64,000 nt of DNA from assembly GCA_903941105.1 (NCBI GenBank), contig CAJANL010000009.1, positions 1 through 64,000 of the forward strand. The letters run 5' to 3'. The notes under the pieces are model-generated. The model was not told where the DNA came from. It saw only the letters and a list, made by a program, of their open reading frames with translations, and did no database searches. This stretch comes from an uncultured Rhodospirillaceae bacterium (GTDB lineage Bacteria; Pseudomonadota; Alphaproteobacteria; Rhodospirillales; Magnetospirillaceae). The position numbers and the translations under genes are program-made. Below, piece by piece: positions 34,668 through 40,650 of the stretch (its first letter is position 1; each line of letters starts with the position of its first letter).

Positions 34668-34778
34668 TGGACTTGCGAACATTAGGGGCTGCTGGATATG
34701 CTCCGCCCCCTTGGGACATACTCCTCTGGCAACGAGGAGAACGTCCGCTTGCGGATTTTTGAACGATTGGAAGGGACC

Positions 34779-37700
34779 ATGGCAGACAGGCAATTGATCA
34801 CGGTCGACGGCAACGAGGCGTGCGCTTCGGTGGCTTATCGCGTCACTGAAGTGGCTGCGATCTATCCCATCACGCCGTCTTCGACCATGGGCGAGTTCGC
34901 CGACCAGTGGATGGCCGAGGGCCGCAAGAATATCTGGGGCCTGGTCCCGGAAGTGGCCGAGATGCAGCACGAGGGCGGCGCCGCCGGCGCGGTCCACGGT
35001 GCGCTTCAGGCCGGAAGCCTGGCGACGACCTTCACGGCCAGCCAGGGCCTGCTGCTGATGATCCCCAACATGTATAAGATCGCCGGCGAGCTGACCGCGT
35101 TCACCATGCATGTTTCGGCGCGCACCATCGCCACCCACGCGTTGTCCATCTTCGGCGACCATTCCGACATCATGGCCTGCCGCCAGACCGGCTTCGCCAT
35201 GCTGGGCTCGGCCAGCGTGCAGGAAGCGCACGACATGGCCGCCATCGCCCATACCGCGACGCTGAAGGCCCGCATTCCCTTCATCCACTTCTTCGACGGC
35301 TTCCGCACCAGCCACGAGGTCGCCAAGATCGAGGAGCTGACCGACGACGACCTGCTGTCGCTGATCGACGAGGACGCGGTGACCGGCCATCGTTCGCGCG
35401 CCCTGTCGCCCGATCATCCGGTGCTGCGCGGCTCGGCGCAGAACCCCGACACCTTTTTCCAGATGCAGGAAGCCCGCAACACCTGGCACGACGCCTGCGC
35501 CGGCATCGTCCAGGAGACCATGGACCGCTTCGCCAAGCTGACCGGGCGCGCCTACCGCCTGTTCGACTATGTCGGCCATCCCGAGGCGGATCGCGTCGTC
35601 ATCGCCATGGGCTCCGGCACCGAGACCATCCACGAGACCGTCGAGGCACTGGTTGCCAGGGGCGAGAAGATCGGTGTCCTGAAGGTCCGCCTGTTCCGCC
35701 CGTTCTCGGTCGACGCCTTCGTCGCCGCCCTGCCGCCGTCGGTGCGCGCCATCGCCGTGCTCGACCGCTGCAAGGAGGTGGGCGGCGTCGGCGAGCCCAT
35801 GTATCTCGACGTTATCGCCGCCCTGCAGGAGGCCAAGGCCTCCGGCCTGCGCGCCACCGCCGCCGATCCGGTGGTGATCGGCGGCCGCTACGGCCTGGCC
35901 TCCAAGGAATTCACGCCCTCCATGGTCAAGGCCATCTTCGACGAACTGTCGAAGGCGCGGCCCAAGGTTCACTTCACCGTCGGCATCAACGACGACGTCA
36001 CCCGCCTGTCGCTGGAGGTGGACACCTCGTTCCGCCTCGACCAGCCCAAGGTCAAGGGCGCCGTGTTCTTCGGCCTGGGCGCCGACGGCACGGTGGGCGC
36101 CAACAAGAACTCCATCAAGATCATCGCCGAGAACGCCGGCTTCCAGGGCCAGGGCTACTTCGTCTATGATTCGAAGAAGTCGGGCGCCATCACCATCTCG
36201 CACCTGCGCTTCTCGCCCGATGCGATCCAGTCGCCCTATCTGCTGGACGAGGCCGGCTTCGTCGCCTGCCACCACTTCGTCTTCCTCGACAAGTACGACG
36301 TGCTGAAATACGCCGCCCCCGGCGCCACCTTCCTGCTCAACTCGCCCTATCCGGCGAACGAGGTCTGGGACCACCTGCCCCGCGAGGTGCAGGAGGAAAT
36401 GATCGCCAAGCAGGTCAAGGTCTACGTGATCGACGCCCGCAAGGTAGCCCTGGCCGCCGGTATGGGCAACCGCATCAACACCATCATGCAGACCTGCTTC
36501 TTCGCCCTGTCCGGCGTCCTGCCCAAGGACGTGGCGATTTCGCACATCAAGAAGGCCATCGAGAAGACCTACGGCCGCAAGTCGGAAAAGATCGTCGCCA
36601 AGAATTTCGAGGCGGTCGATATGACCCTGGCCCATCTCGAACTGATGACGGTGCCCGCCGCCGCCACTTCCAACCGTTTCCGGCCGGCGACGGTGCCGGC
36701 CGAGGCGCCTGACTTCGTCCAACGGGTCTCGGCCATGATGCTGGCCAACCGCGGCGACGAGTTGCCGGTGTCCGCCTTCCCGCCCGACGGCACCTGGCCC
36801 ATGGGCACCGCCCAGTTCGAGAGGCGCAACATCGCCTCGGACATCCCGGTGTGGGAGCCGGATCTCTGCATCCAGTGCAACAAGTGCGCCCTGGTCTGCC
36901 CGCATGCCGCCATCCGCACCAAGGTCGCCGAGCCCGCCGACATGCTGGGCGCGCCTGCGTCGCTGAAGCACCAGCCGTACAAGGGTGCCGAGTTCAAGGG
37001 CTCCGAATACATGGTGCAGGTGGCGCCCGAGGACTGCACCGGCTGCCAACTGTGCGTCAAGGTCTGCCCCGGCAAGGACAAGAAGGACCCGACCCGCTTC
37101 TCGCTGCGCATGGAAGACAAGACCCCCATCCTCGACGCAGAGGTGGACAACTGGGCCTTCTTCCGCGCCCTGCCCGAGGCCGACCGCACCAAGCTGACCA
37201 AGCCGACGGTGAAGACGGCGCAGCTGCTGCAGCCCTTGTTCGAATTCTCCGGCGCCTGCCTGGGCTGCGGCGAGACCCCCTATATCAAGTTGCTGTCACA
37301 GCTCTACGGCGACCGCCTGATGATCGCCAACGCCACCGGCTGCTCGTCCATCTTCGGCGGCAACCTGCCCACCACCCCTTACGCCACCAACGATGACGGC
37401 CGCGGCCCGGCGTGGTCCAACTCGCTGTTCGAGGACAACGCCGAGTTCGGCTATGGCTATCGCCTGTCGGTGGACCGCCACAAGGCCCACGCCCGCCTGC
37501 TGGCCGAGGGCCTGGCCGCCCAGGGCAAACTGCCCGAGCGCCTGGTCAACGAGCTTATTCACGCCAGTCAGGCCGACGACGCCGAGATTGCCGCCCAGCG
37601 GGCTCGCGTCGACGACATGCGCCGCCTGCTGTCGGGTATTCCCGCCATCGAGGCCCGCCGCCTCGACCAGCTGGCCGACTACCTGGTGGAAAAGGTGGTG

Positions 37701-38366
37701 TTCATCGTCGGCGGCGACGGCTGGGCCTACGACATCGGCTACGGTGGCCTCGATCACGTGCTGGCCTCGGGGCGCAACGTCAATATCCTGGTGATGGACA
37801 CCGAGGTGTACTCCAACACCGGCGGGCAGGCCTCGAAGGCCACCCCCATCGGTGCCACCGCCAAGTTCGCCACCGCTGGCAAGGCGTTGCCCAAGAAGGA
37901 TTTGGGCATGATGGCCATGAGCTATCAGGACGTCTATGTCGCCAACGTCGCCTTCGGCTCCAAGGACGTCCAGACGGTTCGTGCCGTGCAGGACGCGGTG
38001 AGCTGGCCGGGCGTGTCGCTGATCGTCGCCTACTCGCACTGCATCGCCCACGGCTATGACCTGTCGGCCGGCCTCGACCAGCAGAAGATGGCGGTGGACA
38101 CCGGCTATTGGCCGCTCTATCGCTGGGACCCGCGCAAGCTGGGCACCGGCGAGAGCCCGCTGACCATGGACAGCAAGGAACCGACCGCTCCGCTCTACGA
38201 CTTCATGAAGCAGGAAGCCCGCTTCCAGATGGTCGAGCGCGCCGATCCCGAGCGGTTCAAGGACCTGATGGGCCATGCCGAGTCCAACATCCGCCGCCGC
38301 TTCGCCCTGCTGCGCCGCTTCGGCGGCCTGCCGGAAGGCGGCGTGCCCAAGAACGCGGCGGAATAA
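34779..38366 (+). CDS. nifJ: Pyruvate:ferredoxin (flavodoxin) oxidoreductase
   Basis: 1195 residues from ATG 34779, with GGAAGGGA upstream. It oxidises pyruvate to acetyl-CoA and CO2 and reduces ferredoxin or flavodoxin. Order: domain I (YPITPSSTMGEFADQW), the CoA and gamma domains, two 4Fe-4S clusters (CIQCNKCALVCP and CTGCQLCVKVCPG, ~697-770), the cluster motif CLGCGETPY, and the thiamine-diphosphate domain (GDGWAYDIGYGGLDHVL, then VYSNTGGQ). The full single-chain length is normal. Convergent with the hydrogenase operon, it suggests fermentative or microoxic pyruvate metabolism linked to H2. Confidence 0.97.
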   Translation: MADRQLITVDGNEACASVAYRVTEVAAIYPITPSSTMGEFADQWMAEGRKNIWGLVPEVAEMQHEGGAAGAVHGALQAGSLATTFTASQGLLLMIPNMYKIAGELTAFTMHVSARTIATHALSIFGDHSDIMACRQTGFAMLGSASVQEAHDMAAIAHTATLKARIPFIHFFDGFRTSHEVAKIEELTDDDLLSLIDEDAVTGHRSRALSPDHPVLRGSAQNPDTFFQMQEARNTWHDACAGIVQETMDRFAKLTGRAYRLFDYVGHPEADRVVIAMGSGTETIHETVEALVARGEKIGVLKVRLFRPFSVDAFVAALPPSVRAIAVLDRCKEVGGVGEPMYLDVIAALQEAKASGLRATAADPVVIGGRYGLASKEFTPSMVKAIFDELSKARPKVHFTVGINDDVTRLSLEVDTSFRLDQPKVKGAVFFGLGADGTVGANKNSIKIIAENAGFQGQGYFVYDSKKSGAITISHLRFSPDAIQSPYLLDEAGFVACHHFVFLDKYDVLKYAAPGATFLLNSPYPANEVWDHLPREVQEEMIAKQVKVYVIDARKVALAAGMGNRINTIMQTCFFALSGVLPKDVAISHIKKAIEKTYGRKSEKIVAKNFEAVDMTLAHLELMTVPAAATSNRFRPATVPAEAPDFVQRVSAMMLANRGDELPVSAFPPDGTWPMGTAQFERRNIASDIPVWEPDLCIQCNKCALVCPHAAIRTKVAEPADMLGAPASLKHQPYKGAEFKGSEYMVQVAPEDCTGCQLCVKVCPGKDKKDPTRFSLRMEDKTPILDAEVDNWAFFRALPEADRTKLTKPTVKTAQLLQPLFEFSGACLGCGETPYIKLLSQLYGDRLMIANATGCSSIFGGNLPTTPYATNDDGRGPAWSNSLFEDNAEFGYGYRLSVDRHKAHARLLAEGLAAQGKLPERLVNELIHASQADDAEIAAQRARVDDMRRLLSGIPAIEARRLDQLADYLVEKVVFIVGGDGWAYDIGYGGLDHVLASGRNVNILVMDTEVYSNTGGQASKATPIGATAKFATAGKALPKKDLGMMAMSYQDVYVANVAFGSKDVQTVRAVQDAVSWPGVSLIVAYSHCIAHGYDLSAGLDQQKMAVDTGYWPLYRWDPRKLGTGESPLTMDSKEPTAPLYDFMKQEARFQMVERADPERFKDLMGHAESNIRRRFALLRRFGGLPEGGVPKNAAE

Positions 38367-38388
38367 TATCTGCCGGATGAGAAAGGTG

Positions 38389-38416
38389 ATCACCCCCGCC
38401 GCAAGGCGGGGGTGAT
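38389..38416. terminator. Perfect 12-bp terminator hairpin after nifJ
   Basis: ATCACCCCCGCC (38389-38400) pairs with GGCGGGGGTGAT (38405-38416) around a GCAA tetraloop. It lies 22 bp after the nifJ stop and just before the convergent hydrogenase-protease gene, so it can serve both directions. A short T-poor tail follows. Confidence 0.75.
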
Positions 38417-38422
38417 TGCGTT

Positions 38423-38851
38423 TCAGGGGGCGGTGAGTTGCGCCATCACCCACTCCACCGCCGCCTCGACCTCGGGGGTCAGCCCCAGGCCAGCGGTGAA
38501 GTCGCGGCCTTCAATGGCGACGACGGTGAAGGACTTGGGCAGGCGGCCGAGCAGGCGCGCCATGGCGATGCCCTCGGCGACGCCGAAGACGTGGCTGCCC
38601 TTGGGCAGCATGCCAGCCGGCAGGTCCTGCTTCGCCACATCCCAGGCGGTGACGGTACCCGGTACGGCCCCAGAGCACGAGGCATCCACCAGCACCACCC
38701 GGTCGTAGCCCTGCCACCGCGCCATCAGGTCGGTGCCCTCGCCATGGTGGTCGAGGACGGAGAGGTCGGGGAGGTTCAGCTTGGCGACCGCCTCAGCCAC
38801 CAGCGGCCCGACGGCGTCGTCGTGGCGGAAGGGATGCCCGACGCCGATCAA
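38423..38851 (-). CDS. Hydrogenase maturation protease, likely internal start
   Basis: The protease part alone is 142 residues, the normal size of HyaD/HycI-type endopeptidases (~150), if it starts at TTG 38851. GGGGAGGG lies 5 bp upstream of that TTG and is supplied by the right arm of the repeat. It carries the family start IGVGHPFRHDDAVG (nickel-binding Glu/Asp position) and Asp in VDAS. It should remove the last nine residues of HydA (cut after His421 in DPCISCATH). It is an alternative translation of the fused frame, given separately because the start cannot be decided from sequence. Confidence 0.6.
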   Translation of the reverse strand: MIGVGHPFRHDDAVGPLVAEAVAKLNLPDLSVLDHHGEGTDLMARWQGYDRVVLVDASCSGAVPGTVTAWDVAKQDLPAGMLPKGSHVFGVAEGIAMARLLGRLPKSFTVVAIEGRDFTAGLGLTPEVEAAVEWVMAQLTAP

Positions 38852-39241
38852 TAAAGCCCTCCCCTGGTGAAGCCGGGGGAGGGGAGGGCTTTGTTGCAAA
38901 GCGCCCAGGATGATTCCAGCGACGCCCTCGGCGTTTCCGAGAATATGGTTGTTCCAGAATCGCAGCACCCGCCAGCCGGCGGCGCTCAGCAAGGCGTCGC
39001 GCTCTTCGTCATGACCACTGTCGCAGTGCTGACCGCCATCCGCCTCGATGGCCAGCTTCTCCGACGCACAGGCGAAGTCCAGCACATAGCGCTCGACCGG
39101 ATGCTGCCGGCGGAACTTCCATCCCGCGAACGCCTCACCCCGCAGCAGCCGCCACAGCGCCCTTTCCGCCTCGGTCGGATCCGTGCGAAGCCTGCGGGCC
39201 ATCTTCGTCATGCTGTTGCTGCACCGCGGCATGAAGCTCAC
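38423..39241 (-). CDS. DUF559 endonuclease-like domain fused in frame to a hydrogenase maturation protease
   Basis: 272 residues in one uninterrupted frame. Residues ~10-117 are a DUF559 domain, related to Vsr-like nucleases (DPTEAERALWRLLR, VLDFACASEKLAIEADGGQH). Residues 130-272 are a nickel-hydrogenase maturation peptidase (LLIGVGHPFRHDDAVGP, VLVDAS). The junction peptide SPPLPRLHQGR is encoded by a 28-bp repeat; the second copy lies just before the start. Start GTG 39241 has GGGAGGG from that second copy about 9 bp upstream. The natural protease start may be the internal TTG 38851. The fusion is probably the by-product of insertion of a DUF559 cassette upstream of a protease that used to begin directly after HydA. 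Confidence 0.85.
   Translation of the reverse strand: MSFMPRCSNSMTKMARRLRTDPTEAERALWRLLRGEAFAGWKFRRQHPVERYVLDFACASEKLAIEADGGQHCDSGHDEERDALLSAAGWRVLRFWNNHILGNAEGVAGIILGALQQSPPLPRLHQGRALLIGVGHPFRHDDAVGPLVAEAVAKLNLPDLSVLDHHGEGTDLMARWQGYDRVVLVDASCSGAVPGTVTAWDVAKQDLPAGMLPKGSHVFGVAEGIAMARLLGRLPKSFTVVAIEGRDFTAGLGLTPEVEAAVEWVMAQLTAP
38853..38892. repeat. Repeat copy A with perfect 12-bp inverted repeat
   Basis: AAAGCCCTCCCC (38853-38864) and GGGGAGGGCTTT (38881-38892) with a 16-nt spacer. It contains the 28-bp core at 38856-38883 that is repeated at 39250-39277. Read on the minus strand it supplies the ribosome site of the protease TTG start, and is also translated in the fused frame. Confidence 0.85.
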
Positions 39242-39249
39242 TTTAAATA

Positions 39250-39277
39250 GCCCTCCCCTGGCGAAGCCGGGGGAGGG
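39250..39277. repeat. Repeat copy B, direct repeat flanking the DUF559 segment
   Basis: The 28-bp core matches copy A at 27 of 28 positions (one T/C change). It sits directly before the GTG start of the DUF559 frame and gives it a GGGAGGG ribosome site. The two copies bracket the DUF559 segment of about 366 bp. Confidence 0.85.
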
Positions 39278-39357
39278 TTGGGAGGGGGCCCAACGAGCGA
39301 AGCGAGGCGGGAGTGTTTCCGCAAAGAAGTCCCCCGCCTACCGGCAGGAGAAAATCG

Positions 39358-40650
39358 CTACTCCCGCACGATGTCCAGCTTGAGGAAGTGAGTGGCGCAG
39401 CTGATGCAGGGGTCGTAGTTGCGGATGGCCTGTTCGCAGCGCCACTTGATGTCTTCATCCGACTTGTGGAGGTTGCTTTGCACCACCTTCCACAGGTCAA
39501 GTTCGATCACCTTCTGGTTCTGCGCCGTCGGCGGGATGATGCGGGCATCCTCCACCGCGCCGTCCTTGGCCAGGCGGTAACGGTGGTAACAGATGCCACG
39601 CGGCGCCTCGGTGCAGCCGTGACCCTCGCCCGCCTTCACCGTCGCCTCGACGAACGGCCGGTCGGGCTCCTCCCAGTTCTCGACGATGGCCAGCGCGTCC
39701 TGGCACACCTGCACCAGTTCCACCGAGCGCACCACGATACTCTTGAACGGATTGCGCACCACCGGTCCCAGCCCGACCGCCTTGGCGGTGTCGCGGGCCA
39801 GCGGCGACAGCTTGTCGTAGTTGAGATTGTAGCGGGCCAGCGGACCGACATGATGGTGGCCGCCGTCCTTGGCGACTCCGTGCAGGGCGTTGGACCACGG
39901 CACGTGTTCCTCGTCGATATGCTTGAGAAAGTCGCGCGCCGGAAAATCGAGGCCACTGGAGGTGATCAGGCGGCCCTCATGGATGGCGTACTCGTCGGGA
40001 TGACGCAGCGCCATGAAGTTGTAGTCCTGCTCGATGTCGGGAAAGTCGAAACCGCCCACCAGCTTGACGGTGGCCACCGAGGTCTCGATAGCCCATTTCA
40101 GCTCCTCGATCAGGGTGCGCAGTTCCTTCTTGCGCGGCGTCTTGTAGAAGCCGCCGACCCGCAGGCCCACCGGATGGATGGCGCGGCCGCCGATCAGTTC
40201 GAGAATCTCGTTGCCCATCTTCTTGAGCCGCAGCGCGTTCTCGACCAGCGGCCGGTTCACCGCCGCCAGTTCCAGCGCGTCCGACAGCCCGAGGAAGTCG
40301 GGGGCGTGCAGCATGTAGACGTGCAGCGCATGGCTCTCGATCCACTCGCCGCAATAGACCAGCCGCCTGAGGTCGCGGATCGGCTTGGTGACGGTGATGC
40401 CGAGCGCATCCTCCATGGCCTGCGAGGCGCCCATCAGATAGGCGATGGGGCAGATGCCGCAGATGCGCGCCGTGATGTCGGGCACCTCGGAATAATCGCG
40501 GCCGCGCAGGAAGGCCTCGAAGAAGCGCGGCGGTTCGAAGATGCCGAAATGCAGCTCGGTGACCTTGCCGTTCTTGACCTTGACCGACAGCGATCCCTCG
40601 CCCTCGACCCGGGCCAGGGCCTCGACCTTGATGATGCGCGTGTCAGCCAT
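39358..40650 (-). CDS. hydA: NiFe-hydrogenase large subunit, group 3b (HydA)
   Basis: 430 residues from ATG 40650. It holds the Ni-Fe active site: the N-terminal cysteines C64 and C67 in RICGIC and the C-terminal C415 and C418 in DPCISC. The precursor ends nine residues past His421, so it needs the neighbouring maturation protease. With HydD, HydG and HydB it forms a cytoplasmic bidirectional NADP-linked hydrogenase (sulfhydrogenase), which in this family reversibly couples H2 to NADP(H) and can reduce sulfur. The start overlaps the hydD stop by 8 bp. Membrane-anchored or sensory groups are excluded by the subunit set. Confidence 0.94.

Follow-up and report, generated by a model that had tools for sequence, protein, structure and literature searches.

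Pairing of DUF559 genes with triplex-type hairpin repeats across bacterial phyla, and an in-frame join of one such gene to a hydrogenase maturation protease

DUF559 genes, which encode a small predicted nuclease, are paired with G-rich hairpin repeats across phyla, the two occur as cassettes inside conserved genes, and relatives that bear DUF559 carry more copies of the repeat. We examined one such gene in a 64,000-nucleotide stretch of DNA (the window), where it is joined in frame to a hydrogenase maturation protease. The best explanation overall, which we consider probable, is a widespread cassette of DUF559 and triplex-type hairpins that probably moves rarely and whose nuclease would act on its own hairpins. 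The G/C-rich intrastrand triplex motif (TM / PIT elements) has been described in more than 260 bacterial genomes and tied to rearrangement, triplex formation has been shown for the E. coli motif, and no mobility-providing activities were found around TM in E. coli (Holder et al. 2015, PMC4666352). The spread of TM was left unexplained in that study. DUF559 is a gene paired with TM across phyla, and it is present in E. coli as ycjD; the question of how the motif spreads is therefore directly testable, with DUF559 as a candidate mover of this repeat family.

Results

The window contains a frame of 272 codons on the reverse strand (38423..39241, GTG start at 39241) that encodes a DUF559 domain, a linker coded by a repeat and a hydrogenase maturation protease, and its translation has zero stops separating the two domains. 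Pfam placed DUF559 (PF04480; 38897..39211, reverse strand) at residues 11-115 of the fusion (E 5.5e-36, profile positions 3-108 of 109, above the curated cut-off), and a solved relative named endonuclease-like protein, 3hrl, matches the same domain (E 6e-23). The E...D...ExDG..H residue pattern of DUF559 is present, and residues E26, D55, E66, D68, G69 and H72, invariant across 14 DUF559 sequences, are all intact, as in a predicted nuclease of the PD-(D/E)XK/Vsr-like type. The protease part belongs to the HycI family (PF01750; 38426..38860, reverse strand) and was matched at fusion residues 154-269 (E 1.9e-9, 37.9 bits against a cut-off of 23), with homology starting at RALLIGVG. Pfam found no known transposase or recombinase domain and no Y1 (HUH) transposase domain on the fusion frame. 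Upstream of the fusion lies hydA, the gene for the hydrogenase large subunit (39358..40650, reverse strand). On the other side the protease is convergent with a gene on the forward strand (34698..38366) that we take to encode a nifJ-type pyruvate:ferredoxin oxidoreductase, and a repeat and hairpin scan located a terminator-like hairpin between these two (38381..38424). An earlier note on this DNA had described the DUF559-protease fusion frame of 272 aa, and the uninterrupted ORF and the Pfam matches bear it out.

DUF559 is bracketed by two 28-bp direct repeats, an inner copy at 38856-38883 and an outer copy at 39250-39277 on the forward strand, which differ by a single base (27/28 identical) and can be extended to 34 nt at 91% identity. 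Comparison of the repeats upheld the earlier note on both copies, and also on their placing: 8 bp separate the outer copy from the GTG start, and the inner copy is translated as the junction to the protease, yielding the linker SPPLPRLHQGRA. The 25-nt repeat core occurs at two sites only in the whole window, where shuffled sequences expect 0. Genome-wide, the near-palindrome with at most 3 mismatches was found at about 47 distinct places and the reversed pattern at 0; some of these copies stand alone, while others are paired in inverted orientation at a distance of about 110-125 bp and so make up MITE-like units.

Two features go beyond the earlier note: each repeat copy in the window forms a hairpin by itself, and the outer copy extends past its 28 bp. 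The outer copy is continued at 39278-39288 by the tail TTGGGAGGGGG, a mirror to GGGGGAGGG directed away from DUF559, and the resulting unit (39250..39288, forward strand) has the TM layout of a stem and an adjoining mirror G-rich third strand (GGGGGAGGG-TT-GGGAGGGGG), with a fold z of -2.65 when its flank is included. In sequence, the outer copy thus matches the intrastrand triplex motif. In the inner copy the stem is adjoined by merely a shortened G-rich tail; with a 13-bp-stem hairpin (AAAGCCCTCCCC...GGGGAGGGCTTT) this copy occupies the DUF559/protease junction (38853..38892, reverse strand, fold z -5.8) and is translated as the linker. The outer copy is also one half of a MITE-like unit (39250..39322, forward strand) of which complete copies exist elsewhere in the genome, while the second half is absent next to it; it is therefore not evidently the other end of a unit bearing the inner copy. 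The pair in the window gave an inverted-repeat score of 12, short of the level taken for an inverted repeat, against a direct-repeat score of 26.5. Since its repeats are direct and not inverted, the window is not a clean cassette example, and the idea that the two copies are the ends of one inserted unit is not supported as put forward, given an orientation that departs from the inverted norm and an outer copy that is half of a MITE-like unit.

That norm comes from DUF559 loci selected across phyla by likeness to the window protein. At 98 loci, the 320 bases before and after DUF559 were compared with 370 control positions in the same loci, and inverted repeats scoring at least 16 were present at 73% of the DUF559 loci versus 1.4% of the controls. 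After clustering, and at a score of at least 20, 41 of the 60 independent clusters had them, compared with 2 of 203 neighbouring genes taken as controls (p 8e-31). TM-like sites within 300 bp that face the gene lay upstream in 34/75 loci and downstream in 39/75, where 0.7% would be the background on each strand. Represented among the loci are Alpha-, Beta-, Gamma- and Deltaproteobacteria, Nitrospirota, Chloroflexota, Bacteroidota, Planctomycetota and one actinobacterium, and TM-type repeats adjoin DUF559 relatives in E. coli (ycjD), Klebsiella, Neisseria and Sinorhizobium; some DUF559 loci, such as those of Azospirillum, are without them. The earlier note had placed DUF559 genes framed by G-rich repeats in alphaproteobacteria; the framing was found, and it reaches far beyond that class. 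In the open-access papers searched we found none tying DUF559 or YcjD to repeats, triplex motifs or mobility.

Several cassettes lie inside genes. In a Chitinophagaceae locus (L160), a cassette of 477 bp (159 codons) with 27-bp imperfect inverted ends is located in frame within cinA, and solved CinA chains have about 4 residues where this protein has about 158 and are contiguous at that point. Such cassettes therefore insert. Another lies within a DUF1156 protein (L141), and a third, with the frame broken, within a DNA methylase between EFPEVF and GFDVVLGNPPF (L136). Inspection by eye of the CinA, methylase and DUF1156 junctions in the carriers showed no target-site duplication. Presence and absence of the cassette could be followed in the metF-metH spacer of the window's family, where 6 of 30 genomes carry it and other members of those genera have a spacer of 13-46 bp. 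Within one family the same spacer harbours different dispersed palindromes in different genomes (L191-L192, L197, L198, L201, L203, L204, L211, L213), as if it were a common landing site for them. A further locus (L205) shows a visible duplication at the site: upstream of metH, two copies of the metF 3′ end surround a ACCACAGAG-type element and a fragment of the metH start, and the TM-DUF559 cassette comes after them.

Insertions of this kind might come about by homing, in which DUF559 would cut an unoccupied TM or TM pair and repair would copy the cassette in, as for the Vsr-like (EDxHD) homing endonucleases. We regard this as unlikely. DUF559 has a Vsr-like fold with E, D and H residues, complete MITE-like units carry the same ends with no gene inside, and EDxHD is listed as a homing endonuclease family (PMC6083498), but the CinA insertion lies in a coding stretch that shows no trace of a previous TM.

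In a set of 99 genomes from the window's order, a net TM count of at least 10 was reached in 16 of the 33 with a strong DUF559 match and in 3 of the 66 without one (p 5e-7, uncorrected for descent). About one third of the DUF559-positive relatives have almost no TM under the pattern used, and several genomes have TM copies yet no DUF559 that we could find. Close pairs of DUF559 genes mostly have their site in common, which argues for a largely vertical inheritance with rare movement, and among Azospirillum plasmids every record that covers the whole stretch has DUF559 at the one fixed site, and no empty site was seen. In E. coli, ycjD with TM copies is present in 3361 of 5426 genomes. In the non-carriers examined, sapF is followed by genes for a multidrug MFS transporter and for outer-membrane efflux where carriers have ycjD-fabI (L225-L227 and L229 versus L228), and E. 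coli was discarded as an empty-site test because this efflux pair occupies the site.

Such fixed sites, the TM copies in genomes without DUF559 and the exchange of blocks after sapF would also be compatible with DUF559 being a passenger: another agent or template switching would spread TM, and DUF559, a defence or repair nuclease, would survive between the copies because it is tolerated or because recombination at the repeats exchanges it. Nevertheless, the inverted arrangement that faces the gene is conserved across phyla, and whole cassettes sit inside the CinA and methylase genes, a tight pairing with both ends that would not be expected of a bystander. We therefore consider it improbable, slightly more so than homing, and retain the reading of a rarely moving cassette whose nuclease would act on its own hairpins.

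The joining of DUF559 to a neighbouring gene is not peculiar to the window. At 59 of 105 loci the DUF559 frame enters the C-rich 3′ repeat and thereby gains a tail like PSPARGEG, and the window linker is the same kind of tail. With about half of the frames doing so, in-frame joins recur, and where no stop intervenes DUF559 is joined to agmatine deiminase-type enzymes (three Nitrospirota loci), TilS and UreE. The join common to the three Nitrospirota loci indicates that such joins can last. The earlier note had called a fusion to a metalloenzyme maturase unexpected; with these joins and the cassette nested in CinA, the fusion is not unique.

In relatives, the protease N-terminus reads M-x-x-L-L/V-I-G or near it, whereas in the window the first codons have been replaced by the repeat and the usual start codon is lost. 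An in-frame TTG (38849..38851, reverse strand) stands at the foot of the 13-bp-stem hairpin, shortly after the Shine-Dalgarno-like GGGGAGGG of the repeat, and might start a separate, truncated protease, so that, judging from the sequence, a fused product and a separate protease are both possible. We lean towards the protease being made mainly from the TTG or via linked translation, and the fusion having no special role for the hydrogenase. That selection has kept a DUF559-protease protein for some new function in maturing the hydrogenase is very improbable: this would agree with two intact domains in one open frame and with the persistence of the agmatine deiminase-type joins, but the linker is plain repeat sequence, unrelated enzymes are similarly joined to DUF559, a TTG with a Shine-Dalgarno-like site is available, and none of the relatives found in this analysis has the DUF559-HycI fusion.

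As for the origin of the junction, the protease of distant relatives follows hydA at a distance of 4-100 bp, with no DUF559. In the tree, however, the window protease groups with seven relatives (support 88/89), and in none of the seven is it beside hydA. In most of them it comes after a conserved partner gene of about 220 codons. The partner gene of the window genome lies on contig C182 (L234, 411-1052) and is followed by a hairpin and then by lpd, not by the protease; its product contains HEVGH and matches no Pfam family above cut-off. The protease of one relative (G001) is convergent with nifJ about 4.3 kb away, and that of the window is convergent at close range, so the 5′ neighbour of the protease has changed, and has done so at the repeat. 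A simple insertion of a mobile cassette between hydA and the protease, as first supposed, was rejected in that form, since in the closest relatives the protease lies elsewhere and it is with these that the window protease clusters; what stands of that proposal is that such cassettes insert, even inside genes. Rearrangement at the repeats fits better. Three features (the direct orientation of the copies, the half MITE-like unit next to hydA and the protease's change of neighbour) suggest that the junction arose by recombination between dispersed hairpins, during or after insertion, and this would be the simplest reading. After hydA, three close relatives (L098, L099, L102) have other dispersed palindromes (CGTCATTCCCGCG.., TCGTCCCGAGCGCAGCCGAGGGAC).

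An artefact of assembly or sequencing at the dispersed 27-34 bp repeat is the least credible account. In its favour, the genome holds about 47 relatives of the repeat, the assembly consists of 340 contigs with an estimated contamination of 6.3%, and it is precisely at the repeat that gene order departs from that of close relatives. Against it, assembly words are usually longer than these repeats, both frames are intact, the nifJ side is common to G001, and C182 continues without a break from the former partner gene to lpd, which means that the protease is not simply missing there.

Discussion

From the association between gene and repeat we infer that DUF559 moves the repeats. The proposed cassette would be a short Vsr-like PD-(D/E)XK predicted nuclease gene with G-rich triplex-type hairpins at its ends, and the small nuclease would act on these hairpins much as RAYT transposases act on REP/REPIN repeats, cutting at or near them and thereby moving or maintaining them. 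In the window, the cassette sits directly before the hydrogenase maturation protease. Stops are rare on the C-rich strand of the 3′ repeat, and for this reason the DUF559 frame reads through the repeat into the protease, with the repeat taking the place of the first protease codons; the outcome is a fusion frame together with an in-frame TTG behind the repeat-derived GGGGAGGG. More generally, the cassettes show how a low-stop repeat can weld neighbouring genes into fusion frames, the one with the hydrogenase protease among them.

Related genes of the PDDEXK_3 family (PF13366, GxxExxY-type; L237-L266) from the window's taxonomic order have inverted copies of quite different dispersed repeats (ACCACGAAGGCACGAAG, ACCACAGAGGCACAGAG, GACACGGATGAACACGGATG) on their flanks. 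This holds for 13 of 21 loci, compared with 1 of 126 controls, and hints at a general scheme. We tentatively put forward, as a possibility that falls somewhat short of even likelihood, that DUF559 and intrastrand-triplex hairpins may constitute an unrecognised class of mobile elements in many phyla, with the gene-free hairpin pairs as non-autonomous members and the PDDEXK_3 genes with their own repeats as a parallel second class.

Among known DUF559 proteins, VsrA of Caulobacter (CCNA_02930) sets off the SOS response when cells lack the ScmA methylase (PMC12907096), and this DNA damage response implies that a DUF559 domain can act on DNA in vivo; the published evidence for nuclease activity in the family is of this in vivo kind and concerns this Caulobacter member. 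VsrA, the DUF559/YcjD proteins and 3hrl have the same domain and the same predicted nuclease residues as the window protein, which differs in being fused to a protease; in the literature searched, no link of these proteins to repeats or mobility turned up. The window protease resembles the HycI/HybD-type proteases in having an intact PF01750 domain beside a NiFe hydrogenase, and departs from them in that its native start is replaced by the repeat and a DUF559 domain is added at the N-terminus.

With TM, the repeats share the hairpin CCCTCYCCC-loop-GGGRGAGGG and its mirror G-rich tail, an intergenic position, inverted pairs and rearranged loci, the triplex being predicted here from sequence; the difference is the DUF559 gene between inverted copies in many phyla, as well as ycjD adjoining the copies in E. 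coli. The EDxHD homing endonucleases are likewise Vsr-related, free-standing nuclease genes able to invade genes. Their targets are homing sites, and many of them are associated with introns or inteins; the DUF559 cassettes, by contrast, have triplex hairpins as their ends, and we noted neither introns nor inteins here. The best-supported analogy is with the RAYT and REP/REPIN systems: in both, a single, mostly vertically inherited nuclease gene is paired with a flanking dispersed palindrome that is also found as gene-free inverted pairs. RAYTs belong to the HUH (Y1) transposases and have REPs of the GTAG type as their substrates, and the pairing proposed here differs from theirs in both partners, the predicted nuclease having the PD-(D/E)XK fold and the repeat being a G/C-rich triplex hairpin.
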